Shown piece by piece: positions 1-40,969 of a stretch of 64,000 nt of DNA. A program made the translations under genes and the position numbers. Location: positions 310,001 to 374,000 of the forward strand of contig JAOVFP010000009.1 in assembly GCA_025738555.1 (NCBI GenBank). Reading direction: 5' to 3'. Below the pieces are notes generated by a model, which saw only the letters and a program-made list of their open reading frames with translations, was not told the origin of the DNA and made no database searches. The first letter of the stretch is position 1; every line of letters starts with the position of its first letter. The DNA is from Cyathus striatus (Eukaryota > Basidiomycota > Agaricomycetes > Agaricales > Nidulariaceae).

Positions 1-108
1 ACTAATTATAACGTAAAAGAAACGTCAAGTGTATGTGGTAACATAGGCATAAGAACGAGTACAAAACATATAATTCGTTTCCTGCCCACGAACGTACCAA
101 TTGTACTC

Positions 109-3331: not shown

Positions 3332-3530
3332 CCATGGTGTGAAGTAAATCCAGGAACTGTGACGGTTCCACCGTATCCCTGACCTTAAAGATGAGAACTA
3401 CCCAGGGGATGCAGTTGTGAAAGACAAAAAATCCACTAGATAATGTGTCTCACTTGGCACTCGCTTCGGAATTACTTTCGCAATATTTCTCACGGGTCCG
3501 GGAGTAAACAAGTTTTCCGATAGTCTCGTT

Positions 3531-3605
3531 CCCATCCGTTTTAGGAAAGAACATCGTGAGAATTTTACAATTCTGCTCCTGCGGGTCTTTCCTAAAACGG
3601 ATGGG
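3531..3605. repeat. Perfect 20-bp inverted repeat, 35-nt loop
   Basis: Arms 3531-3550 and 3586-3605 are exact reverse complements (CCCATCCGTTTTAGGAAAGA). The 75-bp unit could be a miniature inverted-repeat element or a long hairpin. No target-site duplication is evident just outside the arms. Confidence 0.85.
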
Positions 3606-4645
3606 TATTGGAATTGCTGACTGCGTCAGCGGCGACCTTGTTTGACTTTAAAAATTATTGTTCAGTATTCTGTTGAGAGTGCTGTGGTTAAGCTCAACTC
3701 CATGAGCTGAACGAAAGATTGGAAGGTCAAATTGAAATCTGTGGGAAAAATATATATTCGTGGGAATAGTCACGTGAGTATTGAAAAGTGAACCGATTAT
3801 TCGCCTGCAGAGAAACCTTGTCAAACAAGGTGACGAGACTAGTTTTCCGGATGCTTCACTCGTGTCCAAATCCTCCATTCGGCCCCCCCTGTCGATGGCT
3901 CTGTCTTCTTTATGAATGTTCAAATACTCTCTTAGCCTGATGAGACCTGAGGCCTATGAGGACTTAGAACACCCAGAAAACATCGCAGAGGTCATCGGAA
4001 GAGTCAAATAGCGCTGTATTCAGCAATGTTTCTGGAGCATCTGCTCATCCTAAGTTGAGCTCTGACAGAGGTGGAGGACACTTATGATAGTATCCTGGAT
4101 TGTCGATTGTCGATGCCGTGGGTAAGAATAAGTACGTGTTTCCTGACTGGAGATTGGCGGATAGGTCTATCAGGTCAGATCCCCTCGCCATCGGGCGTCT
4201 TTGAATGTAAACTTACTGTTTAAGTTCAGGCCTATATTATTTGGATTTGAGCAGAAAACCCTTCGCATTTGCGGGGTCGGATCCGGATATATCTTAGCTC
4301 TAGGAATCAGAAAAGCAGCGGGCCACTCTTCTGCAAGTACCACCATCGTAAAGCCTTCGGGTGTTTCACTGCGTTTGGATTCGTTTGCTTTGATATTGCT
4401 GCTACTGCTGCTCCGGCTTGCTTGAACTATGTCAATTCGTGAAGTTTTTGTTTTTGTTGCTGTTGCTCGAGAAATTGCTCGAAAGTCGGACTTGAGATTG
4501 TTTTACTATCGCTTAGAACGGGGATGGAATTCCGAATGATGCTACGTATTATGATCACGCAGAACTTCAAATCTCTGAAACAGGAGTAGACTTGGAAATC
4601 AACAATTCTTTTTCTTTTTGCGCAGCGCCTGCACGGTTAGGACCA

Positions 4646-4681
4646 CTAGATTGATTGGCTTATTGCAGGCAATCAATCTAG
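4646..4681. repeat. Perfect 12-bp inverted repeat
   Basis: Arms 4646-4657 (CTAGATTGATTG) and 4670-4681 are exact reverse complements around a 12-nt loop. Function unknown; it could be a hairpin or a chance palindrome in AT-rich DNA. Confidence 0.7.
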
Positions 4682-5009
4682 ACTGTGATTCTTCTCGTTT
4701 GGACACTGCCATTGAATTATATCTTCAAGAATAGGTTACATATTACAGTTTATATCTGCATTTTATAAGTATTGTCCACAGTCGGATTGTAGATGTTTGT
4801 TAATTGATGTTGACCGACTACCAGTCTCGACTAGAAAACCATTCGAATCGATTATGATACGATTTACTGCAATCGTGCATTACACGTGAATATTATTTAT
4901 GGTTCCGTTTTGCAAGGTGGAGTAGGCAATTCACCGTGCAGAACGGGAATCAACGATACGCGAGAGGCATGCACATAGCGAAGTCGCTGAGTTCCTGAGT
5001 TCGAATATT

Positions 5010-5417
5010 GGGTGACTCTCCATAACGGTCTGAAATTTCAGACACTGTTGCAGACATGTTCCTGACGGAAAGCTCCGAAGAGTGGAGTTTGAAAATGTGG
5101 TCACGCATCTGGAAAGAAGCCGCTGCAGACAGTAAAATTGAGGTGAAAGTTGTTTGAGAGCGCTCCTAGAGCGTGTCTGAAAGTGGAGGGGGGGCAAAAA
5201 TGTGTTTCCAAGTCGCCGCGGACAGTAAAATTGAGTCGAAAGTCGTCTGAGAGGCAAAAATGCGATGTCTACAACAAAGTTTGGAACCGGGTGGCCTCGT
5301 CTTGCTGAGTATGAAAGTTTCGCTTATTCATGAACCTTAGCAACGGCATCTCGGCTCAACGAGTCTGAATCGAAATCTGGCTCTAGAAACCATTCCAGAC
5401 GTTATGGAGAGTCACCC
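5010..5417. repeat. Inverted repeat pair with internal degenerate direct repeat
   Basis: An 18-bp perfect inverted pair (GGGTGACTCTCCATAACG at 5010-5027, its reverse complement at 5400-5417), with partial similarity continuing inward, bounds about 400 bp. Inside, 5119-5160 and 5215-5253 are near copies in direct orientation sharing GACAGTAAAATTGAG and flanking bases. The layout looks like a small decayed mobile element or rearranged repeat; no coding capacity is seen. Confidence 0.7.
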
Positions 5418-5802
5418 ATTACTCCCGGAAGCCCAAAATTTGCCCAAAGGATATAACCACCTTGAAAATACACTAAAGCCGAAAATAAAATGCTCTGGGG
5501 ATCTACGAACGGTATGACTTCGAGCCCATATTTCATTTGGAGAGAACTTCTTCGGGATGGACGATCCTTATTGGCGCTTGAACTTGCCTAAATTTTGATC
5601 TGGTTCAAGAATTCAAGCTTCAGCTTCAGTGCTCTCTCAGATCTCAGATTCCATCATGAGATGTATGTTTGTTTAGAAGTAGATCTCGCTCGAATCATCA
5701 CTCTATGATAAGTACCGTCGAGTCCACGCTGCGGTGACTCGACTCTCACCATCCCGTTGCAAGTCCACAGCTCCACCCACCTTCCTGCAGTTGCTTCTCA
5801 TT

Positions 5803-7964
5803 ATGAAGTCATTCTCTATTCCTCTACTATTCGCCTCACTAGCAGTTGCCGCTCCTTCAATCGGTGTCCAAGGCTCAGAGCAGTTCCCATTGAACACGGA
5901 GGATGTTGACACTTATGCTGGGTTTAACATCGATTTGAATGCTCCGCGACTTCTCCAGTTTGAGAATAGGTCGCCTATTTGGATGACTGAATTAGAGAAG
6001 GTGCTCACTGCTTATGTCCGAGTCGGCTTCAACTCTTCATGTTCTTACCTATTCAAGCCAAAACACGAGGAGAAAAGTTCTTTGACATGCGAGTTTTCTT
6101 ATAAATAAACTGCGCTTTTGTGTTGACCATTTGAATGGAAAATTGACAGCACTGAAACCCAAGATCTGAGTTTCCGGACCCCATTTAGCAAACGTAAGAA
6201 TTACAATAGTCTCATCGTTACTTTGACAAGACCTTGATAATTTTACAATATACAGTCAGTGCTTTTCCAACCCCGAATGCGACAGAAAGAGTCAAATCTG
6301 TATTGAAATTTTTATCCACCGAGGGACCTCGGGGGAATCTTAAGAAATTTACCAGCTTCAGGACAAGACGTTTGTGATTTCTTTGCCTTCTCTGTTTCTT
6401 CCTGTATTGATATTTGATTTCCAGATTACCTCAGTGACGTAATATATATACCTTATCGTGTCTTGCCCTTCTGATTCTTCCAAACACAGACCGGACGACA
6501 AAGTCAGAAATGGCTTCTTTCCAAAATATCTGAGGTGATTTACTATATTCAATTGATATTTCTATCATATTATATATATTTCTAAGTTGACAAACAAATA
6601 CGCCTCCTCAAGTCTTCGTGAATTAATCAGTCTCATCGAATTTCCTCATTCCTGGGGCCAGAATAGTATTGTCTGTAATTCATAAATTCATTGCTCGATG
6701 TCCTCTAATTCTTAGATATAGATCGTTCGGATTAACGGCTCATCTACCGAAGATGATGGAGTTGTCGTTATTGGAGCACATCAAGACAAGCTCTTATGCC
6801 TTTCAGAATTATCTCGATGATTTCTAACATTTCCACTGTGTTAGCACGAATTGGACTCCTTCCCTTCCCATTCCCGGTACGTATAGTACCTCTTACATAC
6901 TAGCTAATGATAGCTGATATGAGAGTCACGACAGGAGCCGATGGTGAATAATCTGCCTCGGACTTTTCGCCACGACTGACCTTGACTTTAGATGATGGAT
7001 CTGGATCTGTTGCTATTTTAGAGGCCTATCGAGTACTAATTGCTGCAGATTTCAAACCAGCCAGGACGGTTGAGTTTCACTGGTATTCTGCGGAAGTACA
7101 GACTTTACTACCCTACAAACATTAGGTCAACTAATGACTAGATTTAATTGCAGGAAGGCGGCCTTCTTGGATCCCAAGCTATTGTCAAGGATTATCAAGC
7201 TCGTTCGGTAAACGTGATTGCAATGACTGAGGTACTTAAATATATACGTCATTCAACACTTAGTACTTACTCGGGACTACTAGTTTGATATGACAGCTTG
7301 GGTGAAGGTACTAAAGCTTACGTCTGAAGTATCCAAAAAATTGATCATTGCTAGCGAGGTACACGCGAGGAAGTGGGAATCATGGTTGACTTTGTCAACA
7401 CGAAGTGAGAATGTCCGTTTGGTATCGTCTAATTTACTGACATTTCCTACAAGTCTCACGAGGTTCAACATGCAACTTGTGGACAAATATCTTGATATAC
7501 CATATGTGGAGGTATGCATAATTCATGTTGCGTATAATGGAATGGGAGCTCATGTATACCTTGGAATAGACCAAATGTGGCTTCGCATGCAGTGATCAGT
7601 TGAGATGATGTTTTCGTCACTTCTATGCATGTGTATGTGCTTAACTTTGCCCTCAATTTCTAGAGCCTCGTGGGAGAAGGCTGGGTACCCTTCTTCTTTC
7701 AACATAGGTATGTTAACATATATGTTGTGAAGTAATTTTGCTGAAATTGAAATTGTAACAGAGGGCGACTTCAAAAACTCCAACCCGAACGCTCACACCA
7801 CGAACGAGCAAGCAAACTGTTACTTCTTACTATCCTTGTCGATAATCATTTTGCTATAAAGTGTAATTGATATATCAGATGAATTCAGCTTCTCTCATAT
7901 GTTGGAATTCTCTAAGCTAGCAGTTGCCGTTGCGATCGAACTAGGCGGATGGAAAGAGGAATAG
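5803..7964 (+). CDS. Secreted M28 leucyl aminopeptidase, 19 exons
   Basis: A signal peptide ([18 protein letters not shown]) precedes a fungal-type M28 zinc aminopeptidase. Splicing recovers every metal or catalytic landmark: GAHQD (His ligand, near 6775), PGADDDGSG (bridging Asp), SAEEGG (general-base Glu), MTEFDMT (Asp) and NAHTTND (His, near 7790), plus the Cys pair in CGFACSD. The family removes N-terminal residues, often Leu, from peptides outside the cell. The gene is cut into about 19 exons, including a 14-nt one (6425-6438) and a 9-nt one (6935-6943). Three introns need GC donors (6089, 6790, 7808). The exon 1/2 junction is the weak point: the donor at 6001 does not join in frame to the expected start of exon 2 near 6058, but the acceptor at 6077 does, at the cost of six residues. 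So it is either functional with a shifted acceptor or carries an early lesion. DQASW replaces the usual DHASW. Confidence 0.82.
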
Positions 7965-8511
7965 ATACCAGATGCCAGTGGACTGAAGATAGTACTAGAT
8001 CAAAATGGTACTATAAGCATTTGTCCTGACTTATTCATGTGTCCTATTACATATTTTATCGTTATGTAATCTTTAGATACGTGAAGATTCTGATATACAC
8101 TGACCCCAAACCTCAAAGTTGACTGTAGTATATTCGGAGCACTGTCTTTAATAAGTTTTAACTATCTGGCATTCTAAGCTGAAGTCTAAGAGATGTTGAC
8201 TTATCCTTGGAAGTGGGATCACTCTAATGCAATGCCGACGATAAAAAATATAGCCAGGCCTACTCAGTACCTATATATCACACAAATTACTCACAAGCCT
8301 CACATAGGCAATGCCAATTTCGCCTAAGTTCACCATAGACACTGTGCGACGTACTTACGTAAGATTGTAAGTCAGCAATCAACCTGTCTTGGCCAAGGTG
8401 CCCGGCGGTCCAGTAACTTCTTGTCTCTTTTCTTACCGACCTCCAATCAAGTTATATACAAGCTGACTGTCATTCTTATTGCAAGATTTTTGGCTACAGA
8501 GGAAAAAAGGG
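7965..8511. other. Intergenic, convergent gene ends
   Basis: AT-rich spacer between the 3' ends of the aminopeptidase and the first UstY-like gene. I see no coding or repeat structure. Confidence 0.5.
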
Positions 8512-9558
8512 TTAAGGCGGCTCGGGTAGATCCTCTGCATCTCCAAAGCGAGTAACGTGGCTTTCGTCAATGTGTACTGCGTGTTCATAGTTCCAGGCAG
8601 CAATCTTCTCGAAGTTTCGACATGTATGCTCAGTGCTGAAGTTTGGATATGGCGAATGCCAACCATGGACCCAATGGAACGTGATAATTCCGGTGTCAGC
8701 CGTACACATGAGTCTCTGTCGTAGCATCTCAATGCAATGATCTGCTGAATGGTGAGTGTGTCTGCTAACATGTTTTTGATTTTATGAATTACCTAGATGA
8801 CTGCGCAATTCCTTCGCCTTTGCTTCGAACATCTGGTCAATTGGTTCATAATATTCGCGATAGGTATACTTGCGCAGCATGTTCTATTAAAAATGTTACT
8901 CATACCTGCCTCAGTGCCGTATGTGTAAACTTCTGCTTACCAAACAATGCAGTTGGTGATTTGACTCTAGGGCTGCCATGTAACCTCCCCCATCTTCCTG
9001 TTGAAATTTAACATACGAAAGTGAAGCTGGAATTCCTGCTTTCAATCTTTCTACCTCCGATAACCTTATTGGACGAACTACATAGGAACAACGTAAGTCA
9101 ACGCCCTTCTCGTAATCGTTAGGATGCATCTTAATGCTGACTATTCTTTGTAATTCGGTTCCAAGCCGCATCAACACCAGGATTTGGAGGACCTCTATAT
9201 TCGGATGGGTACATAAAAGAGCCATTGAAAACGACGACCTCATATTCCACTGCTTCAAGTGCTGGTGCTAGAAATGATACTTTCTATCAAGCTTATGATG
9301 ATTTAGCTAATATCACATACAGTAAGCCGGTATATGGTTTGTGGATGTTGTGATCCTTGGTGATCCTTTATGAAGAGATACTCCAAGCAGTATACACGAT
9401 ACAAACAGAAGGATCATGTTGAAGATCAACAGTCCTTTTAATGTATGATACCAAAGGCGCCTCGGTGGTTGATATGAATCCGATGGTCCGGGCAACAGCT
9501 GTTGCGTTGATTCATCGACCATGCTAGGCAATTTGGTGTAGCTATTCGAAGAAGACAT
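8512..9558 (-). CDS. UstY-like oxidase (DUF3328), copy 1
   Basis: Five exons read from the ATG at 9558. A cytosolic N-terminus is followed by one membrane helix (LLIFNMILLFVSCILLGVSL), then the lumenal DUF3328 domain. Family hallmarks are the HQLHC motif in EDGGGYMAALESNHQLHCL and the second motif DHCIEMLRQRLMC near 8700, then HTCRNFEKI. UstYa/UstYb-type proteins of ascomycetes carry out oxidative cyclisation of ribosomal peptides (ustiloxin, phomopsin, asperipin), with conserved His/Cys thought to form the active site. All splice joins keep the frame: AAT A|TT after the second exon, CTG CAT TGT TTG|AAC before the fourth, CTA G|AT before the last. The neighbourhood holds a paralogue (11911-12903) and a Kex2-type repeat precursor, which fits peptide modification. 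The substrate is inferred, not shown. Confidence 0.9.
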
Positions 9559-10763
9559 TGGACGGGGAGTTTAACATGTAAAAGTAAGTTTTTTTGTGAA
9601 GTAGTTATTCGGAAAATGATGAGCTTCGTGAAAGCATAAGACCATAAGGTTCATGACCGAACTATGATACTCGGTGTGGGTTAAGTGGGAACAATGAATC
9701 GTTTACTCTTTAGAAGCTCTGAATTCTAAGTATGATGGTTCTTGTGATTTAACGGCGAGTTCGGCCTTAACATGTCTGGGTCTAGCATTGATATATTTCC
9801 TTCCGGTACTCTGCTCTCAGAACCGTATGGTCTCGGTGAGCGCGATTGAGCTGATTATTTTTAGCAAGATATATATTTATAGAAGATTCAGACTGTACTT
9901 GAACTAAATTGATTCATTTCTTGATGATCAAGAAGGGAAATCCACTTCGAAAAAAACTATCAGTGATTTGAATGTATGAGATGTCACGGGCTTGGCTTCT
10001 GTTTGATGACATGCATGTACATTGTACTTACCGTGGTCTTTGTATCTATTCTCATCTTACTCCTGTGAACGGCGCTCTCTATTAACTTTTTGATTGACCT
10101 GGGTGCATCACTAACTACTAGATTTCTTCCCCTGGCCGAGTATCGAACTTTGGAGTTCAAAAATATGGTTTGATGTTACCAACTTCAAATTTCAATTGTG
10201 CCCACGGGCACTCAGACGAAAATAGCTGTGCTTTGCATAATTCCCACGTGAAAGCACAATCCACTCATGTAGCCGTCATTGCTCAGAAGGCCGCATTGGA
10301 CTTGTAGAAACTTGCATCTGAATGCTTGAAACATTAACTTGGCCTGCTCGATACTCCGATACGCGTAGGGTCGAGTCCGCGCTTGTTCACCACTATTGAA
10401 ATAAAATCGAAGTATATTTATAAAGTTGCATCTATGATAGTCTCAAATTTTGTGTATCTAACCTATCTTAACTATCTTATATTCGTATTTTAAGCCAACA
10501 TGGAAATATTAGATTTTACTTCCAAAATAAGAATCTTGAGAATCTTGCACAGGTTCATTGGCAGAATCCCAATCGGATCCATTAAATCAAGTCGCCGTGC
10601 ATCCAACATTGTTCACTACATAAACACATTGTAAACGCGTAAGTGAAACTAGTGATAAGGTTGCTTGTAGTTGCTTGGTTTGGAGGGCGATAGATAACAA
10701 ATATCTCTCATGCATTTGTCAGGTAGTGTGAAAAACTTCGGACCCCGAAGGCTTTGTTCATTC
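9559..10763. other. Intergenic, AT-rich
   Basis: Upstream of UstY-like copy 1 and downstream of the RidA gene. No open frame shows a family match on either strand. It should contain the promoter of copy 1. Confidence 0.45.
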
Positions 10764-11273
10764 TCATTGTCTGGGAACCTCTGCTATACATTCTATTTCC
10801 ATAGATGCTCCAAATGGGAGGCTGGCAACGCCAACACATGTTCGTGCGGGCATCTTCCCACCTTCAAAGAACTGTATAACAATCTCGTTAGTATCATCCA
10901 ACACACTGTTTAGCTCGTACTAGGGAACTAATCCATTACCTCGCTATATACCTCATTCATAAGATGGAATTCGCCTTGCATATTTGCCATGTATACATTA
11001 GCTTTGACGATGTGCTCTAATCCTGAACCGGCTGCTTTCAAGACAATGGCCATATTTTCCAATGCTGCTCGCTGGAAGGTCAAGTGATAAATATGTGAGT
11101 CTAAATTCGATAAATTATCTAACCGTTTGTGCTTTTATTCCTCCTTCAACGAGTTTGAATTCTTTTGTACAGCCAATCGTACCTGACACATATACACGGT
11201 CCCCTGATATGACTGCTTGACTGAAGACAGGTAACGGGGGAACAGCATCAGGTGTCGAAACGATTGTCTTCAT
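10764..11273 (-). CDS. RidA/YjgF family imine deaminase, three exons
   Basis: Three exons (11124-11273, 10952-11071, 10764-10871) encode 125 aa, the usual RidA length. Each exon is a whole number of codons. Visible family features are an N-terminal TPDAVPPLPVFSQAV, the strand GDRVYVSGTIG, the helix QRAALENMAIVLKAAGSGL-type segment, VKANVYM, and the C-terminal ARTCVGVASLPFGASMEIE, with the Arg that binds substrate carboxylate and the Glu of IE. RidA proteins hydrolyse reactive enamine/imine intermediates released by PLP enzymes; some relatives work inside biosynthetic clusters. The gene lies between the two UstY-like genes in the same orientation, so shared expression is plausible. It has no single long open frame, so simple ORF scans would miss it. 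Confidence 0.9.
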
Positions 11274-11910
11274 AGTGTCTTAGAAGGGTATGTATGGGGC
11301 CTGCGGACCAATGCCTCATAGTGTTTAAGATCCACAAACTTATATCCCAAAGTCTCGACGAGATTCAAGGTTCTTGGTAACATCATTTTCTATTCTCATG
11401 GGGCATCGGGGTTGACACCCACTCCGGTTAGCTTACTACTAGGAAACTGCAAAGCCACCTGTATTTCCGTGGGATAATTTTCAGAAACGTTTAAGTCCAT
11501 ACGTTCATGGGCGTTATTAGGCTTCTATAATATCGCTCATTCACATACAAAGGATCGGTCATTAACGATTTTAGATCTCATCTTGCTACAGGAGAGCTTG
11601 AAGAACGTTGGACTGATCGGTGTTATGTCACACCAACCTTTCACATATGCTCGGGGTTTCAGTATGAAGTATACCGGTTAAAATTCAACGAAGGGGGGTA
11701 GAGAAGGACCAAGATTGATGGACTTGTTATCCAACTTTAGATAAGGCGAGAATATTTCACTACAAGACCTTTATTTATCACGCTGGTAGGCTCATTTATT
11801 GTACAGAATATTGATCGGGTTTACAAGAATGGTAATCAAGCTGTCCAAAAATCGAAGTTCTCTAAACCGGCTGTTATTCCGTGGACTTGATCTTTCAGAT
11901 CGAAAAACAG
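11274..11910. other. Intergenic or unrecognised
   Basis: Between the RidA start and the UstY-like copy 2 stop. A minus-strand open stretch around 11280-11400 has no recognised motif. I cannot support a gene here; it should include the RidA promoter. Confidence 0.35.
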
Positions 11911-12903
11911 CTACGGTAGCTCTGGAAGATCTTGTGAATCACCAAAGCGGACAACACGACTTTCTTGAATATGTACGGCATTCTGATAGTTCCAGGCAAG
12001 GATCTTATCGAAATTTCGGCAAGTATGCCTGGTGCTGAAATTTGGGTGCGGTGGAAGTCTACCGTGAACCCAGTCGTAAGCGATAACTCCTATGTCACTG
12101 GTGCACATGAGTCTTTGACGCAGCATTTCAACACAATGGTCTGTATGCTCGCGCAGTTCTTCTGGATCCCCTTGGAACATCTCGTCAAATGGCTTATAAT
12201 GCTCAATATAAGTATATTTGCGCAACATATCCTGCTCCAGGCGTTACTTTGAAGAATTCGCAAAACACTGGTTAAGTATGAGTCTGCTTACCAGGCAATG
12301 TAGCTGGTGGTTCACTTCTAACGCTGCCATGTAGCCACCACCATCCTCATCTTGGAATTTGACGGATGAACGAGTTACTGGTATACCTATTTTTGAGAGT
12401 TCTTCCTCCGATACACGTATTGGAGGAACTGCATAGAATGACTTTTAGAGCCACATCAGCTATCATCACTAGCGAATACTAACTGCTCTTTGTGACCTGT
12501 CTCCAGGCCATATCAACATCTCGACTTGGAGGGCCTCTGTATTCAGAAATATATCGGTATGACCCATTGAAAACATTGGTTTGATATTCAACGGCCGTAA
12601 GTGCGGGTGCTAAGAGAATATAAAAATGTGGAAATTCAGTATACCAAAGTACATACAGTAAACCGGTTCATATTTTGTACAATGCATCGTGTGTGACAAT
12701 TCTTTGTGAAGCGATATTCCGAACAGTGTGCAGGAGAAAACCAGCAGGATTATATTCATAGCCAGTATTCTTTTTCCATTGTACCAAGCACGTTTAGGTT
12801 GCTGGTATGATACTAAAGGATTATATAGCACTGGCTTCTTCTCTTGTGTTTCATCGTTATCGATACCAGGTACTGGCGAATAATCACTGAAGAGGGTGGA
12901 CAT
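11911..12903 (-). CDS. UstY-like oxidase (DUF3328), copy 2
   Basis: A paralogue of the gene at 8512-9558, same strand and exon plan. The start at 12903 (MSTLFSDYSPVPG) is preferred over the in-frame ATG at 12948 because it aligns with copy 1. One membrane helix (ILAMNIILLVFSCTLFGISL) precedes the catalytic domain. The first motif NHQLHC lies in EDGGGYMAALEVNHQLHCL near 12300-12350 and the second, DHCVEMLRQRLMC, near 12100-12140; HTCRNFDKI follows. UstY-like proteins often act in pairs (UstYa with UstYb), so a tandem pair is what a cyclic-peptide locus would show. The strong similarity to copy 1 in the C-terminal exon suggests local duplication. The exact middle exon borders were not fully traced. 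Confidence 0.88.
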
Positions 12904-13571
12904 TTGAAGAGTTGGAGCTAGATGAAGTTGGTGAAAATACTGGTTCAATCCGATCTTTAGTATTAAATGGGGGCTCTCCCAAAAGATATAATTACGAAGT
13001 CTAAATACCCAAGATTAAAAGTTCAGCGGTATCTCTCAGAAATTCAATTCAGCGTTTTTACTATGCTGGATTTGGATGTCCGATTCTCATGACATTAAAG
13101 CCATTTGGTGATACACTGACCTGGGAAGTGCGCCAAAGTTATACTTCCACGCATCGAGCTTCTAAATGGGTTTCTTGTCTCTTGACTTCTTGTAACGACG
13201 GAATGGTGCCTAAGTCCGGTCTGATACTACTATTGTGCTTTCGTAACGTGCATCGTAGCACGCTTAAGGTATAGGTCCGTTTTTCACACTTGGTTCACAC
13301 TACAAGGAGTTATGTATCACCTCAGACAGGACTGAATCGGATCGCGTTGCATATGGTACACAGTTAGAATATGGTTCTCACCCGATGCGGAAAATAGCCT
13401 TTTTTAGAAGGTGTTAACATCGGGGTGTACCATATGTACCATGATCCGATTCACTATTGTCTGGGGGTATGTAGCTTGAATTTCATTTGAGATTCAACAA
13501 TGTATTTTGTCACCTTCAGATATGTAAATATATATTTTAACTTAGAGGCATTTATGAAGTACAAGCAACAA
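12904..13571. other. Intergenic with an inverted-repeat element
   Basis: Upstream of UstY-like copy 2 and downstream of the membrane protein. No coding region is supported. It holds the palindromic element at 13322-13465. Confidence 0.5.
13322..13465. repeat. Palindromic MITE-like element
   Basis: Imperfect inverted arms at 13334-13360 and 13426-13452 share GAATCGGATC and CATATGGTACA. Weaker complementarity extends outward (CAGACAG near 13323, CTGTCTG-type bases near 13458) and inward (CACCCGATG near 13379, CATCGGGGTG near 13418). About 140 bp in all, without coding capacity. It may be a miniature inverted-repeat transposable element or a long hairpin. Confidence 0.65.
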
Positions 13572-15016
13572 TTAAACTGCGGTAGCATACTCAGTGCCCT
13601 GACCTAAATCATGATCCCTAAAGTCATACGCATCTCCGACTTTTCCACCTGCAATCGAAGAATCTCGGCGACTATCTGTAACCTTTGTCACCTCTACATG
13701 CAATGGCTTCATATCATACAATGTGCTGGTTCCCGTTCCATCTGATAGAGCTGTAACTTGCCTTCCATTGGAAGCATCCGCAGCCGCGTTGAACATAGTT
13801 AAGCGTGTTCTAGTAACGGCAGTTTCGCTGGATATTCCCAATGCAACGCGCACTATAACAAGTGAAAATACGACACCCTGAAAACCTCAATATGAGAACA
13901 TAGATTTCATCAGAATACTTTCGGGCTTACAATGACTTGGGTAACCTATATTTTTAGATGTTAGATGGCATCAATTTTGGGATTGAGCACACGTACAGCA
14001 TCAAGAACAATGTACTGTGCGAAGCTACCACTTAGGTATAAAGAAAGCAGAATGACAAGGCATGCAGAGTAGATTGCTCCAGATTCGATAATGACGACGG
14101 CAGCTGGAACCAGACTGCGTCCACTGACCACGCCTCTCATCTTCCGGTGATTCCACCAAATGCGCATCGCAATTAGAGCTGCACGTATAATTAGATTTGT
14201 CAAGAATCAACTGAAAACCTACTTACAGGTTGAGCTAAAGTTTGTAAAAAGAGTAAGAGAAAAAAATGAGACAATCCAGTCTTGTAATTGAGTTATAAAA
14301 ACAGGTTCATCTGGTGCTGCTCTGGCAAAGGCTTGTAAAGCACCAATTCCCACACCTGTAAAATTTGACTTAGTAATAGCAAAGCTCAGTAGGAACTACA
14401 ATGCAGCATACCAATACTTGCTATGAAACAGACCAGGATCGGCAGTACAACTCGCTTATCGCCATTCCACACAAGATATAGACGATACAACTTGTGTACT
14501 TCTGCATTAGACTTCAAAATCGAAATTATAAACATCATGATACATACAATAAATGCATCCCCAACAAGGGTTTGCATAGCATACGCAGTGCTTTTCAAAA
14601 CATAAATTGGTACATCAACTTGGCTGAGGTAGCCAATTGGACCCCCTTTTGTGTCAGCGAAGTTCAGGAAGGCATCAAGCATTCTTCGAAGATCAACACC
14701 GATGTGCTAAAATGGTGTGAGAACTGTGATAACCTTTGTGTAGACTTCAGCGAAAGAAGTTCTTACTATAGTGGCCAGAATAAACATAATGATAGAAGCT
14801 GCTAATAGTGGCTTGTTGACTCCATTAGAGGAGCTCTTAAACTTGCGACAGAGAACAATCGTCGATGTGATGAATAAAAACACAAACAGTCCTGTAAAAT
14901 GAAGTAAGCAGCATTTCCGGAACAAGTCAGGTCTCCTTACCATAGAGGACCGACTCTACAAAAATGGATACCAGAGTAACAGCATCAAGACCGATAGAGC
15001 CGTTTTCTTTTGGCAT
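13572..15016 (-). CDS. Seven-helix integral membrane protein, fungal family
   Basis: Several exons read from the ATG at 15016 (MPKENGSIGLDAVTLVSIFV). Successive hydrophobic segments are visible: GLFVFLFITSTIVLC, PLLAASIIMFILATIV, AMQTLVGDAFIVCIMMFIIS, VVLPILVCFIASIG, IYSACLVILLSLYLSG and others. The C-terminal exon (13572-13853) is hydrophilic and begins VALGISSETAVTRT. Proteins of this type are abundant and uncharacterised in mushroom genomes. About seven helices with a soluble tail is receptor-like, but I see no known GPCR family signature. It shares orientation with the UstY-like pair and RidA and ends next to them; a role in sensing or export for the cluster is speculation. Confidence 0.75.
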
Positions 15017-16721: not shown

Positions 16722-18465
16722 ATGTTGTTTAACCGCTTCGCATTGATTTTCACAACTCTTCTTCCAATCATTGTCGTCTCTGCTCTTCCAAGTCCCGTCG
16801 AAGGTATGCAAGCCCGCTTCATTTCGTATCATCAAATTGAAGTTCATTTACTCTATAAGGTGTACTACCAAGGGATCCTAGCAGATTCAGCTACCTTCCA
16901 GATGCTGAGAATCTTGCCAGAGAAGGTGGGTAGAAATAACGTCAAGTTTTGTGGATTTATTCTGAACGATTTAATTTGTAAATTCAACAGAACAAGGAAA
17001 GGCATTCCGTCGAGACGGTGAAAATCTCATCGAAGTTATCGGTATAGCCCCCAACTGATGAAGTGTTATTAACAGAGCAAGCGAATGCGTTCCGACGTGA
17101 TGGTGAGTAGAATATACGAACTAAATATTATTCTTATTCAATGATTTCATTGCACAATAAAACAGAGCAATCTAATGCATTCCGTCGAGATGGTTAGCAG
17201 TGCTTACTATTGCTATCACCGCTCCCAGTAATATATTCCGTCGTTTTAACAGATCAGGGAGTCTCATTCCGTCGTGATGGTGAGTAGAATATATGAACTA
17301 AATATTATTCTTATTCAATGATTTCATTTCACAATAAAACAGAGCAATCTAATGCATTCCGTCGAGATGGTTAGCAGTGCTTATTATTGCTATCACTGTT
17401 CCCAGTAATATATTCCGTCATTTTAACAGATCAGGGAGTCTCATTCCGTCGTGATGGTGAGTAGAATATACGGACTAAATATTATTCTTATTCAATGACT
17501 TCATTGCACAATAAAACAGAGCAGTCTAATGCATTCCGTCGAGATGGTTAGCAGTGCTTATTATTGCTATCACCGCTCCCAGTAATATATTCCGTCGTTT
17601 TAACAGATCAGGGAGTCTCATTCCGTCGTGATGGTGAGTAAAATATACGAACTAAATATTATTCTTATTCAATGACTTCATTGCACAATAAAACAGAGCA
17701 ATCTAATGCATTCCGTCGTGAAGGTGAGCATCGAGTCCTGGGCCCCTGGCACTACTATGCAAGCCAAAATAATATTCTGACTCGTTGTACCAACCGAATA
17801 GAGCAATCAAACGCATTCCGTCGCGATGGTGAGCATTGAATCTTTGTACTATACAAGGCAAAATAAATCCCAGCTCATTGTACTGTCTAAATAGAGCAAT
17901 CGAATGCATTCCGTCGTGACGGTAAGTAATTAGTGCATAGATCAAATGATACCTCATCTCACTGTATTTTGTTTCAAACTTTAAACAGAACAGGGAAAGG
18001 CATTCCGCCGTGAAGGTGAGCGTCATGATATTGTATTGGCATACAAGCCAAATGAAATTCAATCCGACTCATTGCAACTCATTGTACTATCCGGATAGAG
18101 CAATCGAATGCATTCCGTCGTGACGGTAGGTAACTTTCCTACATCAAACAATTTTTATCTTATCATATTTCGTTTCACACCTTAAACAGAACAGGACAAA
18201 GCATTCCGCCGTGAAGGTAAGCATCTTCTCTTTACTGAAACACCTCACCGTACTAAATTATTTAAAAGAGCAAGGCAAGGCATTCCGTCGTGGAGGTAAG
18301 TTAATACAAAACACCACATAAAGATGGATCTGCTCACGATATTCCACTCTCTGAGTAGAGCAGGGCAAGGCTTTCCGTCGTGATGGCGAGTATTTTCCAT
18401 TTTACGAGTACAGCAACATATCGGCTCACTGTATGTATTTAACAGAACAAGGCAAGGCATTTTGA
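16722..18465 (+). CDS. Secreted Kex2-type repeat peptide precursor, one 27-nt exon per repeat
   Basis: Nineteen exons encode about 199 aa. Exon 1 (16722-16803) gives a signal peptide; exon 2 (16860-16925) gives a short leader with LPRDPSRFSYLPDAENL. Then 17 repeat exons follow. Sixteen are exactly 27 nt and start at 16991, 17076, 17167, 17253, 17343, 17430, 17520, 17607, 17697, 17802, 17895, 17989, 18099, 18190, 18269 and 18359; the last begins at 18446. All junctions are phase 1 and introns are 52-83 nt. Each exon yields nine residues: EQSNAFRRD (or RRE), DQGVSFRRD, EQGKAFRRx, EQANAFRRD or EQDKAFRRE. The recurring RR is a Kex2 site, so processing would release seven-residue cores such as DEQSNAF after trimming. 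The final unit stops (TGA 18463-18465) right after its Phe. Such precursors beside UstY-like genes are dikaritin-type RiPP substrates; a secreted signalling or surface peptide is the alternative. Confidence 0.88.
17167..17696 (+). repeat. Three tandem 177-bp two-exon modules
   Basis: Exons starting at 17167, 17343 and 17520, each with the following DQGVSFRRD exon and two introns, repeat at 176-177 bp with near-identical exon and intron sequence. Introns beginning GTTAGCAGTGCTTA and GTGAGTA alternate strictly. The array records recent duplication of an exon pair. Confidence 0.9.
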
Positions 18466-19011
18466 AGTCGTGATGGCAAGTCCTTTTCGAAGTCAGTAAT
18501 TTACAACAAGATCACTGAATGTGTCGTACCCAAATAGCCTGAGATGTTCCTATCCGTATTCCTTTCTTTTGGTAGTCGCTCAATTACACCTGAAGCACAT
18601 AGCTTTGACCCGGAGATTGGCTACGGATAAATTTGGGCCTTCGTAACTTCTGTAATTATCAAGTACACATATGTGTATCAGCGTATGACATATAAACAAG
18701 TTGAAACAAGCGCTTGACAGTGGCTATAGATTCGCAGAAGGATTTCTCTCGTATGATTATCCAATTGATGTACCATAATGAACGTAGCGACGTGTTATCG
18801 CAATCATTGCAATTCGTACGTCCGTCGGATAGTAAGTACTGACTCATCGAAAATGAGCGATCCCGCATTTAGCGGAGAGTTTATAACTAAAAGCGCATGG
18901 AACGGTTGTGGCAAGTATATAGGCATCTTGACTGCGAGTGTGAAGTTCTTTCTTGGCCTCCACCACCCCCTATCTATCCAGTCGTGAGAACTACGTAGTA
19001 CTAAGACCTCG
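18466..19011. other. Intergenic between precursor and S9 peptidase
   Basis: No supported gene. Right after the precursor stop, the remaining bases of a decayed repeat exon (GTCGTGATG) are followed by a GCAAGT donor-like hexamer at about 18476. The distal part should hold the S9 peptidase promoter. Confidence 0.5.
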
Positions 19012-21206
19012 ATGTCCAAAGCACCCTACGGCACTTGGTCGTCTCCCATTACAGCTGAGGCTATTACCAAAGGCGCAAGTTACTTTTCGCTCCTACTGAT
19101 TTTCATCCACTCACCTATTTCAGCAGTCCAATGCCATATCTGATGTGATCGTCGACCCTCTTACTGCACAAGTCTATCACATTGAAAGCAGGCCCTCCGA
19201 AAAGGGCCGCAGTGTTCTTGTCCACACTGCTACAGGAAAGGACGTAACTTCAGACAAGACATGGAATTTCCGTACCGGTGTTCATGAATACGGAGGATCC
19301 GCTGTCATTGTGTATGGAGGAACGATTTACTTCTCTCATTACGTCGATGGTAAGGTGTATCGAATCATTGAATCGGAGGGAGACAAAACTGAACCTGTTA
19401 CTCCCGGTACGCCGTATGAGCTCTATAATTATTGTCTCTGTATTCACTGCCATCTGAGAAGAGGAAAAACCCTATCGATATGCCGCGTTTAAGGTTCATC
19501 CTGTCCATACACATCTCTTGGTCTCAATTCTTGAAGATCATACCATTGATGAGCCTTCCAAGATCGTAACTACACTCTGCATCATCAACACCAAGACTAA
19601 GACAGTTCATACTCTCGTATCTGGCGCAGACTTTTATGCATCACCCGGGTTTGACTCTACCGGAACCCATCTTACCTGGATGCAGTGGGATCATCCTGAT
19701 ATGCCCTGGGAGGGAGCTGAAGTTCACGTTGCTTCGGTCTCTGTATCGGACGATGAGGTGTCCATTCATGACGATGTTCATATCGCCGGAAAGCATGAAA
19801 AGGTATCTGCTGCTTACCCCTCGTGGGCGAACGACAACACGATTGTGTACACCTCTGATGAGACTGGGTTTATGAATCCACATAAATATGATCTAAAGAG
19901 CGGGAAATCTTCTCCGGTGCTACCTGAACCTATTCAACAGGATTTTGGTCTGCCAATGTGGATCCTTAACTTTTCTCCTTACGCTGTTCTCGGCAAGGAT
20001 GGCAACAGAGCTCTTTGGGCTGCACTGAAGAATGGTCGCACTATCTTTTATCTGTTGGATTTGACTGGTGCTACGAAACCTCAGGTTGTCGAGTCACCTT
20101 ATGTTTTCACTGAAGTAATTCATACTGTCTCTGCTGAAAACGAGGAACTAGTATTTGTAGGCAAGCAGGTTAATGAAAGTACCAGTATCGTACAGTGCAG
20201 TTTGGCGGGATTGCATAAGAAGGATTTCCGCGTGCTCAAAGGTCGCTCTGAATCGGATCCATCTTTCCCTAACGGTATCGTCTCTCACCCTCAGCCCATT
20301 ACTCTTCAGTTTGACGGAGAGCCCTTGCACGTCGTGTATTACGCTCCGACGAATCCTGACTATTCTGGCAGCAGCATCGAAGAAGAGCGTCCGCCATGTG
20401 TCATAAACATTCATGGCGGACCAACGGGTTACACGGACCAAGGACTACGCTGGAATTTGCAGTATTTTACTTCTAGAGGATGGGCCTGGTATGTGATTTC
20501 CTTTTTCTGATTTGTGTTTGAGCTTAGCTTTGTACAAGGACGGATGTCAACTATGGAGGGTCCTCTGGTTCTGGACGTCGGTACATTGAGCGTCTAGCTG
20601 GTAAATGGGGGATTGTAGATGTAAACGACGCTATTCGCGCGACGCGTGCCCTTGCCGCTGCCCCTTACAACCTCATCGATCCCAAGCGAGCTGTAATCCG
20701 TGGGGGTTCTGCGGGAGGCTTCACTGTGCTAGCATGCTTATCTATCGTAAAAGAAGATGACTTAAAGACTTTTGCTGCAGCTACTAGTTCTTACGGTGTC
20801 TCCGACCTGAAAAAATTGGCGGACTTCACACACAAATTCGAAAGCCAATACCTGTACAAACTGGTTGGTGGAACGGTTGAGGAAGTACCTGAGGTTTACA
20901 GGGAAAGGTCACCTATCTATTATGCCAGTCGGGTGGTGGTTCCTTTACTGGTGAGTTTCATTTCATTTCGCAGCGAACGTTAGAATTACTGATTTCTTTC
21001 CTTAGATCCTGCAGGGAGATGCTGACCGCGTAGTTCCCAAAGAACAATCCGAAGAGATTTACGAGAGCATCAAGTCCCGTGGCGGAGTTGTAGAATATAA
21101 GCTCTATTCCGGCGAAGGACATGGCTGGCGTCGCGATGAGACTATGTGTGATGCTTTGGAGCGTGAGATTGGATTCTACGAGAGAATACTTGGACTTAAG
21201 AACTAG
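19012..21206 (+). CDS. S9 family serine peptidase (prolyl-oligopeptidase-like)
   Basis: The start at 19012 (MSKAPYGTWSSPITAEAIT) is followed by an intron with a consensus GC donor (GCAAGT at 19075), which alone keeps frame into SNAISDVIVDP. An N-terminal beta-propeller region (VHEYGGSA, SGADFYASPGF, YTSDETGFMNPHKYDL) leads to a C-terminal alpha/beta hydrolase domain. The catalytic Ser lies in IRGGSAGGF (about 20700), Asp in GDADRVVPKEQ (about 21020) and His in GEGHGW (about 21120). There is no signal peptide, so a cytosolic dipeptidyl/acylaminoacyl-peptidase-like enzyme that trims short peptides is likely. It follows the repeat precursor by 546 bp on the same strand. A related family (POPB) processes amanitin precursors, but this S9 type is also a common conserved gene, so cluster membership is open. 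Confidence 0.88.
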
Positions 21207-21480
21207 TTAACAACGCAAATGCCAGTGAACATTGTACTATATCATTAAGACATTTTATTTACTTACATAAATGCAAAAGAAAAGTGTTATGCATTGTGGA
21301 TTTAACACGGGGAACGGAAGGGCGCGTCAAGCCGATCGATCGCGATGTAATCAACCCGAGTTGGAAACTGTTCCGTCGAGATAACTTATTTCTGAACTAT
21401 CTCCACCTGTGCGAGTGCTGGTAAGCTGCTGCTATGACCCATTTTACCAACTGGGATCCCATAACAATGAAGAATCAGAC

Positions 21481-22578
21481 ATGCCGGACGCGTTGATCAA
21501 CACAGATCTCCCTGGATTGACCTTGATCTCAAAGGGAAAGGTCCGCGACATCTATTCGACATCTTCCCCGGGCCATTTGTTGTTCGTCGCCACTGACCGA
21601 ATATCTGCATACGATGTTATCCTGAAAAATGTAAGCCGCATCTTTTATGATGGCGAGAGGCGCCTGATTGGTTCGTGTAGGGTATACCAGACAAGGGAAA
21701 GCTCTTGACCAAGATATCTTTATTTTGGTTTCATCAGCTGAAAGATATCATTCCCAACCATTTTGTGACTGCAGATGTTGACGAGATGCCCGAAGAGGTT
21801 AGGAAATACAAGGATATGCTGGATGGTCGCACTATGTTGGTGAGGAAAGCGGAGGTAGTTCCGTTAGAAGCAATTGTGCGAGGATATCTCACAGGTACTT
21901 TTTACTTTTATATGTTAAATCACGAATGCATAAGCTTTTTGCAGGATCTGCATGGGCAGAGTATAAGAAATCTGGAACGGTACATGGCATTCCTCTTCCT
22001 GAAGGCCTTAAGGAATCAGAGAAACTCCCAACGCCACTGTTTACCCCGTCGACTAAAGCAGAGCAAGGAGCACACGACGAAAATATATCTCCAGAACAAG
22101 GTAAGCCTCTACGCGCTTTCACGATTTACGTGCTAACGTGCTAACACGTTAAACATATGCAGCTGCGAAGATAGTTGGTGCAGAGCTGCTCGAAAAGGTT
22201 TCCTCCACCGCCGTGAAGTTATATACCTCTGCAGCTGACTACGCGCGCGAGCGCGGTGTTATCCTTGCCGATACCAAATTCGAGTTTGGCTTAGTGCCTT
22301 CCAAGGATGACCCATCGAAAAAGGAATTTATTCTAGTCGATGAGTTGCTTACTCCTGATTCGTCCAGGTATTGGCCTCTCAAGGAGTACGCTGCAGGGAA
22401 GTCCCAGCCTAGCTTCGATAAGCAGTACCTGCGCGATTGGCTTGTGTCTGCTGGGTTTAAGAAGGGCTTGGAGAGTGGTCCTCCAGGAAAGGAAGGCCAG
22501 GGCTGGGTGATTGAAGAAAATGTGGTCGAGGAAACTAGAAAGAAATATACGGAGGCTGTGGACCTCTTAACAAGCTAG
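21481..22578 (+). CDS. ADE1: SAICAR synthetase (phosphoribosylaminoimidazole-succinocarboxamide synthase)
   Basis: Four exons (21481-21630, 21681-21894, 21945-22100, 22163-22578) give 311 aa, matching yeast Ade1 in size. The enzyme joins aspartate to CAIR with ATP in purine synthesis. Visible motifs are GKVRDIY and DRISAYDV near the N-terminus, [21 protein letters not shown] for nucleotide and substrate binding, ADTKFEFG, and [13 protein letters not shown]. The ATG at 21481 is chosen because homologues begin shortly before [15 protein letters not shown]; an in-frame ATG at 21409 would add 24 atypical residues. All splice joins are clean. It converges with the DEAH helicase, whose stop lies 236 bp downstream. 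Confidence 0.97.
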
Positions 22579-22813
22579 AAAGAACACATTTCCGATTGTA
22601 TAACAATTATTGATTATTCTAAATGAGTAAGGTTCTATTCTATTTAGCTCGGATGAACTAGCAGAATATTCGCGCACTGGATGACATGAAAACAGCTGGT
22701 TTTTCGACGTACTGTACTGGTGGTTAGGAATAGCATTAATATAGATAAAAATTATCCACGTGTGATCCATAATGTCAATGATAGAGGTAGGGGCAAGAAA
22801 CACCCATATTCAG

Positions 22814-25509
22814 TCAAGCATTCCGTTTACTGAGAGCGTCGTGCTTGATGAAGAAGCTTTTGGGTATGGCGGATACACCGCGGGCATAAATTTGATTAGT
22901 ATAGACCTTAGACAACATCAGTCTCTGGCAAACGCTGAAAGAGCCATGAACAGCTTACCACTTCGTCGTAAATGATAGCTGGTATCTTTTTGTCGCAGAG
23001 CACTGAGCCAGGATGGATTTTGATGACCTACAACGTTCAATGAATAACATGCACGCGAGTGTACGAATAATACGTACTGATTGCCCCATAGTCTGCTTAT
23101 ACGATCCATCAGGCTGAAGCAAAGCTGAATTCATCGTCAATCCGAACCCAAGACTCCTCACAACAGGTTCTTCGTTCTCCCCACAGCTGACCTTTGAATC
23201 TATCCCCAACCGCCCACAGACCTGCTGCAGTTGCTCTCTAATATCTCTCGCCTCCAACAATGCACGTTCATTCAAGAAATGCTTCCGACACCAATCTCGC
23301 CTGGTGTTTTTGTTCTCTGTCGCAGCGATCTCCTGGTACGCACGGACTGTGTTGAGGATTGTCATGTGGTCCCCTGAGGGGTGCCGGAACTTTTGTCGTG
23401 CGGAGGCTATGGAGGAGCGCTCGGTTGAGAGGTCGAGGAAAAGTTTGGAAGAGGCGCTGAGAATGGAGATGATGGATAGGATTTCGGATGTGCAGCCTAG
23501 TTCGACGGATGCGAGCACTGTACGGGCGTGTGTTGGTTCGAGGGGGAATGAGGCCATTTGTTTGCCTAATGGTGTGAGCTTGGCTTTATCGTCGATTGCT
23601 TTGAGCAGCCAGAGGATTTTGAGGGCGGACATGACTGGAATTTTGTTAGGGCGGAAGTAGGGTAGGAAAAAGAGACTTACTGGAGTCTTGGTCGGGTTTG
23701 TCCATTAAATCGAGATCTTCAAGATCTTGACCGAGACATTTTAGTTGGAGCATGCTGGATGTTAGGCTGACACGCATTATTTCGGGCTCGGCTGATAGTT
23801 CCATGTTGTTGAATGCGTCTTCGGTGTAGAGGCGGAAGCAGACACCCATTCCCTGTTTTTTTTTTGTATGAAAGAAATGTATGAAGAGAGGAGGGGAGAA
23901 GTCAAACCTCGCGACCTGCACGACCTGCTCGTTGCATGGCTGATGATTTTGTGATATCTTTAGTTAGTAGGGTATCGAATCCTACAGTTAAGGTTAGACC
24001 ATTCATACGCGGGAGAATGGAAACAAAAGTCTACCTCCTCCACTATCCTTCGCCAAATACCTCTTTTCCTTGCACTTGCCTGTATCAATGACATACTTGA
24101 CGCCAGGAATAGTAATGGATGTCTCAGCAATATTCGTCGCGAGGATGCATTTTCGCATGTCTTTTGGTGTGGGGGAGAACGCCTTTGCATTTTTTCCGGG
24201 TGCCTGTGCCGCATACATGGCGCAGATGAAGACACCTTGAGCAGATTGGGGAAGGCGATTAGCATAAAGCTCTATGGACTTTTCAAGAGACTCGATATCT
24301 TCTTGGCCCGGTAAGAAGATGAGGACGTCCCCTGGAGGTTGGTCGGTGTGGATTTGGAAGAAGGTGCGCATGGCAGAGTCGACGTAGTCTGGTTGGGGCT
24401 CGACTGAGTGGTATATTTTGACTGGATGCTGACGACCTTTGATATAGAGGATTTTTGCGCTGCGTGTTATTAAAATCGAGAATCATCGGAAGTGAAGTGC
24501 ATTTACATACTTGTCGAAGAATTTACTGAATTTCTCAGCATCGAGGGTGGCGCTCATAACTACAATTTTTAATGGATTGGATTTTCCCTTCCCTTTTCCC
24601 TGTTCCCCGCCCACGTTCCTCTGTTTCTGGATCTTCTTCAGATTCGCCATTAGCAAATCCGTGCGCAGAGTACGTTCATGGGCTTCGTCGACAATAACGA
24701 CGCTGTACTTACTCAACAGCGGGTCGGAGAGGAGCTCACGGACGATCATACCGTCAGTCATGTACTTGATCCGCGTGTCGTTGGAGGACTTTTCGTCGAA
24801 TCGGACGGAGTAACCTACGAGATGACCAAGAGGGCTGTTTTGCTCAGTTGAGACGCGAGAGGCGAGGGAGGTGGCTGCAACTTTGCGCGGTTGGGTTACG
24901 GCGATCGTGCCGGTCTCTGCGAGACCGTGCTCCAGGAGATATTGGGGAACCTCTGAGGTGGGATTATGTGAGAGGTGGGCATGGAGACGGGGACGGGGAC
25001 GTACGTGTTGTTTTGCCAGAGCCTGTCTCGCCTAGGAGGACTGTTACGTCGTTTGCACGAATTTCATCCATGAGCGCATCTCGTCCTGATAATCTGTTGG
25101 TTACGGCACGATCTCCCCAAGTAAATCAAATACCTTGAGCGATTGGAAGTTGTTTCCTCTGTTCCAGCAGCGCAGCAGCTTTAGCAGAATGTGTACTCGG
25201 CCCCGCGCCGTTTAATGCCCTTCTCTTATGCGTCTTTCCCTCATCTACGTTGGGGTTGTGACCATTGGGTAGGTCGGGCGAGGAGCTAGTTTCTGAGGAG
25301 TGAGAAGGCCTCGGCCTCTTGTGTTTTCTCGAAGTATCGTGACCATTGAGCATGGCGTTCTTCCTCTTGAGAGACTTCTTAGAGAGAGAGTCGTCGTCGT
25401 CGTCTCCCACGTCGACCCAAGGTATAGGCTTATTTCCGAGGTGAATTTTATGGTTGGACTTGCTGTTGACGGGCATGAGCCGGATGCCTTTCTTCACGGC
25501 GGCAGGCAT
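22814..25509 (-). CDS. DEAH-box ATP-dependent RNA helicase (DHX33/Dhr2-like)
   Basis: The minus-strand gene begins at 25509 with a basic, disordered N-terminus rich in K/R/S (KHKRPRPSHSSETSSSPD). Spliced exons then show the helicase motifs in order: GETGSGKTT (I), TQPRKVAATSLASRV (Ia), DEAH in VVIVDEAHERTLRTDLL (II), MSATLDAEKFS (III), VLIFLPGQEDI (IV), TNIAETSITI (V) and QRAGRAGRE (VI). The winged-helix/ratchet domain follows (SALKILWLLKAIDD) and the OB-fold region ends with VIKIHPGSVL and SFFIKHDALSKRNA. The length, near 740 aa, and basic N-terminus fit the nucleolar Dhr2/DHX33 branch, involved in rRNA processing, rather than the longer splicing helicases; that placement is inference. Motif II lies near 24690 and motif VI near 23920. 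No frame breaks were found. Confidence 0.94.
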
Positions 25510-40930: not shown

Positions 40931-40969
40931 GCTCCTGGTCTCTGTTTTCCTTGACTGGCTGTTGTATTT

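Follow-up and report, generated by a model that had tools for sequence, protein, structure and literature searches.

Dikaritin-like gene cassettes in Cyathus striatus and a predicted precursor with one core per symmetric micro-exon

Introduction

A 64,000-nt stretch of Cyathus striatus DNA (hereafter the window, on contig 9 [C9]) holds what appears to be a secreted repeat precursor whose gene is broken into a chain of 27-nt exons, one repeat on each. The locus raises three questions: whether this chain is a gene or an accident of sequence, whether the gene stands alone or belongs to a larger cluster, and whether its division into micro-exons serves splicing or merely records how the repeats multiplied. 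KEPs (Kex2-processed repeat proteins) are widespread among fungi, with 7878 reported in 1345 of 1461 strains, and among Basidiomycota 103 of 1680 (6.1%) have DUF3328 neighbours (PMC7329392). Published KEP surveys worked from predicted proteins, among which they sought the repeats (PMC7329392, PMC9769878), and DUF3328 proteins are reported from non-RiPP clusters too (PMC12048977).

Results

A repeat precursor on a chain of predicted micro-exons

The exon models, which are predictions from sequence, give a precursor gene at 16722-18465 (+) with 19 exons, 558 nt in all, encoding 185 aa (Table 1). Its product begins with a hydrophobic N-terminus (MLFNRFALIFTTLLPIIVVSA) that by eye resembles a signal peptide, and continues through a leader, whose 24-nt exon is symmetric too, into 17 repeats of the form [E/D]QxxxFRR[D/E/G], 16 of which each occupy their own predicted 27-nt exon. 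Every junction is in phase 1, the introns behind units 1-16 measure 52-83 nt, donors are GT in 17 of 18 cases and GC in the remaining one (at 18386), acceptors are AG in all 18, and none of the 19 exons carries a premature stop. FRR occurs 16 times, once per nine residues, and unit 17 reads EQGKAF followed by the stop; RR is one of the Kex2 sites (KR, RR, KK) that separate repeats under the KEP criterion. Re-derived in this way, the gene has the structure that the first-pass annotation had proposed, a signal peptide and leader followed by 17 units, 16 of them on 27-nt phase-1 exons between introns of 52-83 nt, and our count of 16 FRR sites bears out its claim that RR follows a conserved Phe in units 1-16. 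Directly 3' of the terminal stop lies sequence resembling RRD codons plus a donor (GTCGTGATGGCAAGT, compared with GTCGTGATGGCGAGT at unit 16). The precursor has no Pfam match, and a further match at 17314-17340 was spurious and excluded from the unit exons.

Table 1. Coordinates of the predicted precursor, its repeat array and neighbouring genes in the window
Feature	Position	Strand	Description
UstYa-2 (PF11807)	8512-9558	-	5 exons, 273 aa, motifs HQLHC and HLDHC
RidA/L-PSP family (PF01042)	10764-11273	-	3 exons, 129 aa, E 1.2e-34; between UstYa genes
UstYa-1 (PF11807)	11911-12903	-	4 exons, 276 aa, motifs HQLHC and HTDHC
Predicted multi-pass membrane protein	13572-15016	-	8 exons, 360 aa, no Pfam match; between UstYa-1 and precursor
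Exon 1	16722-16803	+	82 nt; start codon, signal-peptide-like MLFNRFALIFTTLLPIIVVSALPSPVE, judged by eye; ends phase 1
Exon 2	16902-16925	+	24 nt, symmetric phase 1, leader DAENLARE
Unit 1 exon	16991-17017	+	EQGKAFRRD
Unit 2 exon	17076-17102	+	EQANAFRRD
Recent tandem array	17090-17730	+	177-bp unit of two exons and two introns, 3.6 copies, 95% matches
Unit 3 exon	17166-17192	+	EQSNAFRRD, donor GTTAGC
Unit 4 exon	17253-17279	+	DQGVSFRRD
Unit 5 exon	17343-17369	+	EQSNAFRRD, donor GTTAGC
Unit 6 exon	17430-17456	+	DQGVSFRRD
Unit 7 exon	17520-17546	+	EQSNAFRRD, donor GTTAGC
Unit 8 exon	17607-17633	+	DQGVSFRRD
Unit 9 exon	17697-17723	+	EQSNAFRRE
Unit 10 exon	17802-17828	+	EQSNAFRRD
Unit 11 exon	17895-17921	+	EQSNAFRRD
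Unit 12 exon	17989-18015	+	EQGKAFRRE
Unit 13 exon	18099-18125	+	EQSNAFRRD
Unit 14 exon	18190-18216	+	EQDKAFRRE
Unit 15 exon	18269-18295	+	EQGKAFRRG
Unit 16 exon	18359-18385	+	EQGKAFRRD, then GC donor
Last exon, unit 17	18446-18465	+	20 nt; EQGKAF then TGA stop, a core without RR
Prolyl oligopeptidase-family (S9) exon	20528-20983	+	3' of precursor

The micro-exon chain is not a product of chance

A scanner built to find chains of AG-exon-GT units that have equal length, lack stops and encode a dibasic pair returned 16 units in the window, compared with a best chain of one unit in 15 first-order Markov shuffles and one in the reversed window. Genome-wide, a strict RR micro-exon pattern matched 14 times, every match falling in this array (units 2-15), against none in the control. 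A looser version of the pattern gave 157 matches versus 236 in the control among the matches listed and was useless beyond the array. The scanner also produced short chains that we left uncounted, namely an alternative chain of three 51-nt units that overlaps the window array, along with two three-unit chains within an intronless array elsewhere in the genome (L037, described below); the latter show that a chain alone is no proof of introns, which instead comes from stops and frame breaks between units.

Such breaks are present here: read-through of the introns after units 1-16 shifts the frame or meets a stop in 14 of 16 cases (those after units 9 and 16 can be read through in frame without a stop), and the introns are therefore needed. 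In the stated frame the 12 distinct array exons have a pN/pS of 0.24, compared with 4.05 and 5.56 in the two others, so that the exons differ mainly by silent changes, the pattern expected of a translated frame. Exons have a GC content of 52%, against 35% for the introns after units 1-16, and outside a recent 177-bp duplication intron pairs are 46-70% identical by global alignment while exon pairs are 63-100% identical. A branch-point motif search, with matches in 8 of the 18 precursor introns, was uninformative. The micro-exon array at 16722-18465 is thus confirmed as an observation, and it is not due to chance.

The precursor lies beside a UstYa cassette

The first-pass annotation described only the precursor, which is not a stand-alone peptide gene: it belongs to a UstYa (dikaritin-type) cassette, of which the genome has three. 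Upstream of it, on the opposite strand, lie two UstYa genes, a RidA-like gene and a gene for a predicted membrane protein (Table 1), the nearest UstYa end being 3.8 kb from the precursor. UstYa-2 is 59.6% identical to UstYa-1, each contains two HxxHC motifs, and the pair matches PF11807 with E-values of 6.7e-57 and 7.8e-65. Both have close counterparts among Cyathus striatus proteins in the database, with identities of 98.5% over 194 residues for UstYa-1 and, to a different protein, 96.3% over 273 residues for UstYa-2, which places the genome with this bird's nest fungus (Nidulariaceae) or a close relative. A Pfam scan of 30 chosen single ORFs in the window missed these genes because their exons are short; they were found by a whole-genome family search, in which three of 32 PF11807 matches (two genes) fell in the window, and relocated by whole-frame scans of 1-15000 with stops read as X. 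The splice model of the membrane protein is tentative, as it includes one 15-nt exon and an AAG acceptor that was selected to preserve the frame.

Judged by gene content, the locus is a putative dikaritin-like RiPP cluster, with two UstYa (DUF3328), RidA-like and membrane-protein genes upstream of the precursor. The RidA family acts in imine and enamine chemistry, which by analogy suggests that the RidA-like protein may contribute chemistry of this kind to the pathway.

Other genes in the window were set apart from the cassette. Downstream of the precursor, the S9 peptidase gene was rejected as a member, since a comparison of the ORFs of window 1-26000 with 20 genome stretches, sister cassettes included, gave no match to it. 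A weak M28 peptidase match at about 6990-7110 (+), adjoining UstYa-2, scores 19.1 bits (cut-off 21.3) and could represent a cluster peptidase. Farther along, an 878-aa ORF at 49336-51972 (+) matches DUF6535 (E 5.8e-43), and long, partly overlapping ORFs at 39739-44430 (-), of 1179, 412, 390 and 365 aa, have no Pfam match.

Grouping of the PF11807 matches yields 16 UstYa loci, of which we scanned 11 (the window and ten others), the scan leaving out those at C19:1.05 Mb, C19:1.51 Mb, C4:5.20 Mb, C1:8.39 Mb and C5:0.59 Mb. Within about 8-10 kb either side, a repeat precursor was present at five of the 11 (window, C10, C3:5.96, C4:3.03 and C4:3.05) and was not found by these scans at the other six, indicating that UstYa genes in this genome are not always beside one.

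Sister cassettes encode precursors with intronless arrays

The gene order precursor, membrane protein, UstYa, RidA recurs on contig 10 (C10) and, mirrored, on contig 3 (C3), each of these cassettes having a single UstYa gene. In-frame pieces are 80-93% identical across copies for RidA and 46-92% for the membrane protein, and the spliced UstYa proteins are 36-71% identical over pieces of at least 30 residues; the RidA-like gene (window 11273-10764, -) is the best conserved member. The C3/C10 pair was considered as a second haplotype and the idea set aside, because flank 19000-23000 has one match in the assembly, so that the assembly is not simply doubled. On contig 18, L027 1257-1571 gives a 29% match to the cassette membrane protein and lies beside another UstYa gene.

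The sister precursors, from C10:4273680 onward and on the minus strand of L028 (C3), comprise 19 and 11 repeats of 11 residues, respectively, in intronless arrays on one predicted exon. Their first exon is signal-peptide-like and ends in phase 1, as in the window, and measures 85 nt versus 82 nt there. Aligned at Phe, QGKAFRRD (window) and QRGNFGRE (C10/C3) have Q-x3-F-x-R-[DE] in common. From position, orientation, signal-peptide type and this pattern, we infer that the window and C10/C3 precursors are homologous. The sites in the C10/C3 precursors read F-G-R, and RR occurs there once, in the leader; processing at dibasic sites is thus no general feature of the cassette. For Coprinopsis KEPs expressed in Pichia, cuts behind a single Arg have been suggested (PMC9769878). 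The two sister precursors (L031 3381-4200 on contig 10 and the minus strand of L028 on contig 3) are very similar to each other, and their 19 versus 11 units point to rapid change in copy number.

A second predicted micro-exon precursor on contig 4

Contig 4 has two UstYa genes, at 3.031 and 3.055 Mb, with 87.5% identity over 88 residues. Next to the one at 3.031 Mb, a gene of 13 exons with one repeat per internal exon can be read at L035 3484-4919: ten of the 11 internal exons are 51 nt and one is 48 nt, all in phase 0 (unit TLSKRVPHQYEVLKDEE), and all 12 introns, which measure 55-56 nt, would shift the frame or meet a stop if left in. For eight distinct 51-nt exons pN/pS is 0.18 in the reading frame, against 0.97 and 21 in the two other frames, a contrast weaker than that in the window. 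Beside the second UstYa gene, L037 encodes a related precursor with a similar signal peptide and intronless 48-nt repeats, and the array of a third relative, L042, is intronless too. Two UstYa families of this genome, unlike in their cores, thus show the same contrast: some precursors have an intron inside the duplicated unit and their relatives have none. Exon phase is 1 in the window and 0 in L035, which argues for separate origins, and the micro-exon form probably arose more than once, through a duplicated unit that happened to include an intron.

In L035, L037 and L042 most cores contain Tyr and, two positions further on, Ile or Val; L035 also has XP or XA dipeptides after KR, as in STE13-trimmed peptides. 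One L035 repeat exon (4735-4785) contains an in-frame TAG, which would end the protein early unless this symmetric exon were skipped. Units can therefore decay, yet it is most improbable that the window array is itself decaying and unexpressed, given its stop-free exons, its complete set of acceptors and donors and its in-frame pN/pS.

Duplication and splicing

Part of the window array is a recent tandem duplication of two exons with their introns (Table 1), within which introns are 93-98% identical. The micro-exon architecture most likely arose by tandem duplication of an exon-plus-intron unit, and the array would have grown from one exon and one intron and later from two of each. The exons are all symmetric and share one phase, so whole units can be gained, lost or skipped with the frame kept, as the first-pass annotation had claimed and as the uniform phase-1 junctions uphold, and the remaining cores stay well formed.

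How much more than duplication is needed? That slippage or unequal exchange copied an exon-plus-intron unit with zero function for splicing is likely, and this origin is compatible with the gene encoding a dikaritin-like precursor. It draws on the near-identity of the introns within the 177-bp array, on the two UstYa families in which related precursors differ in just the presence of introns, and on the intronless arrays, which also change length quickly (19 versus 11 units). Such an origin leaves unexplained why splice sites and frame are intact in 16 of 16 units, although selection on the product alone would account for this.

Splice-tunable output, as the first-pass annotation inferred it, is unlikely; the number and mix of cores would here be set by exon skipping, or by intron retention where units 3, 5 and 7 have GTTAGC donors. 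Several features fit it: every precursor exon is symmetric and of one phase, the non-consensus donor is common to units 3, 5 and 7 while the alternating units 2, 4, 6 and 8 have GTGAGT, and retention of intron 5, 7 or 9 would bring an immediate stop after unit 3, 5 or 7. Taken singly, 14 of the 18 precursor introns contain a stop when retained, and precursors truncated in this way would still carry complete cores. However, the common donors are explained by the recent 177-bp duplication, and the sister cassettes encode similar precursors without internal introns, so that the window architecture is accounted for by the kind of DNA unit that underwent duplication. Regulation of core number by splicing is thus possible, being allowed by the architecture, and is not needed to explain the gene. 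We are equally doubtful of the broader proposal that bird's nest fungi possess a RiPP class in which each core is a symmetric micro-exon and the spliceosome sets dose and mix, giving a tunable library invisible to surveys of predicted proteins.

Near the 3' ends of the introns at 17193-17252, 17370-17429 and 17547-17606 lies a stretch resembling the exon core, perhaps a decayed exon. Introns 5 and 9 match the core at 14 of 16 bases and intron 7 at 12 of 14, and scores at least as high as those observed arose in 1, 2 and 2 of 200 shuffles; as 18 introns were tested and these three are mutual copies, a decayed exon is only suggestive.

Predicted processing and product

Taking the array together with its neighbours, the window gene probably encodes a UstYa-type (dikaritin-like) precursor in which each predicted 27-nt exon supplies a core ending in FRR. 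The precursor would be secreted and then cut after each RR by kexin, a carboxypeptidase would strip RR to leave seven-residue peptides such as DEQSNAF, and the UstYa pair would oxidise these cores, giving a small family of heptapeptides; the first core would stay on the leader unless cut there. Splicing, secretion, processing by kexin and carboxypeptidase, and modification are steps that we infer for this precursor; kexin P-domain matches are present in the genome on C2 and C5. The 16 heptapeptides predicted after the first FRR comprise DEQSNAF (five copies), DDQGVSF (three), EEQSNAF and DEQGKAF (two each), and DEQANAF, DEQDKAF, EEQGKAF and GEQGKAF (one each). As the first residue of each is encoded at the end of the preceding exon, exon skipping would leave intact cores, possibly with a new first residue. 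The last codon of the precursor specifies the very residue at which the other cores would end once RR is removed, which would fit a mature peptide ending in Phe.

The window cores hold no Tyr, Trp or Cys, which leaves the conserved Phe as a candidate oxidation site; it is the likeliest one on this basis, and otherwise the UstYa proteins might act on an aliphatic position. The lack of Tyr counts against the dikaritin reading, as described dikaritin cross-links start from Tyr (PMC9233826), and so does the occurrence of DUF3328 proteins in non-RiPP clusters (PMC12048977). Cores without Tyr, Trp or Cys would also suit a plain linear Kex2-processed peptide with a role in signalling or defence or a pheromone-like one, the adjoining UstYa genes acting on another substrate, and linear, minimally modified KEP peptides have been detected in Coprinopsis, Lentinula and Pleurotus (PMC9769878). 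We nevertheless consider a linear product rather unlikely, because membrane-protein, UstYa and RidA genes occur together at three places in the genome and at all three a repeat precursor lies divergently next to them. The threefold presence of the UstYa cassette makes an oxidatively modified product, as expected of a dikaritin-like precursor, likelier than plain seven-residue peptides.

Discussion

The first-pass annotation had proposed an undescribed basidiomycete Kex2-type repeat precursor with one core per symmetric micro-exon, and our searches turned up no described relative. No homologue of the window precursor was detected at E <= 0.1 in a database of 5.8 billion proteins, with matches limited to 0.55-1.75 times the query length, and a protein database search with a C10/C3-type precursor as query likewise found none. 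Among the matches listed from the open-licence literature, none describes a fungal precursor with a separate micro-exon for each core and none combines UstYa and RidA in a fungal gene cluster. The terms intron, exon and splic are absent from the main texts of PMC7329392 and PMC6339444; in the main text of PMC9769878 exon and splic are absent and intron occurs once, in a cDNA method.

The database searched with the window precursor contains both Cyathus striatus UstYa proteins and no detectable precursor, which, together with the micro-exon precursors in the window and at L035, suggests that annotation-based surveys may undercount such genes. Scanning genomic DNA for runs of symmetric exons of equal length would recover clusters of this kind, and related clusters with and without introns in their arrays constitute a natural experiment on the effect of splicing on peptide output.

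The precursor can be set beside several known systems. Schistosome MEGs offer an architectural analogy, for which we claim no homology, and we know of no kexin-cut repeated core among them. As predicted for the window gene, they combine a signal peptide, a chain of short exons that are mostly multiples of three and secreted products, and alternative splicing is discussed for them; unlike it, they belong to another kingdom, their exons are mostly 15 nt and their introns span 0.1-5 kb (PMC10526429). Among fungi, the Xlr2 gene of Trichoderma virens has a microexon like those of the window, but a single one, in a gene for a DNA-binding protein and with no array; according to its abstract, functional microexons had previously been undescribed in filamentous fungi (PMC11121469).

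Agaricomycete KEPs (Coprinopsis, Lentinula, Pleurotus) match what is predicted for the window precursor in being secreted repeat proteins of Agaricales cut at basic sites, and their peptides have been detected by MS. Most of the named peptides, unlike the predicted window cores, have a C-terminal W or an N-terminal pyro-Q, and they are linear or carry minimal modification (PMC9769878). The likeness to the dikaritin clusters (ustiloxin, phomopsin, asperipin-2a) lies in the signal-peptide-like start, the multi-core precursor and its basic cleavage sites, and in the paired adjacent UstYa genes with two HxxHC motifs each (PMC12048977, PMC9233826). The window differs from them in having a core on each symmetric 27-nt exon, cores without Tyr, and RidA and membrane-protein genes. 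As far as we have searched, its gene content is dikaritin-type and its gene architecture is new.
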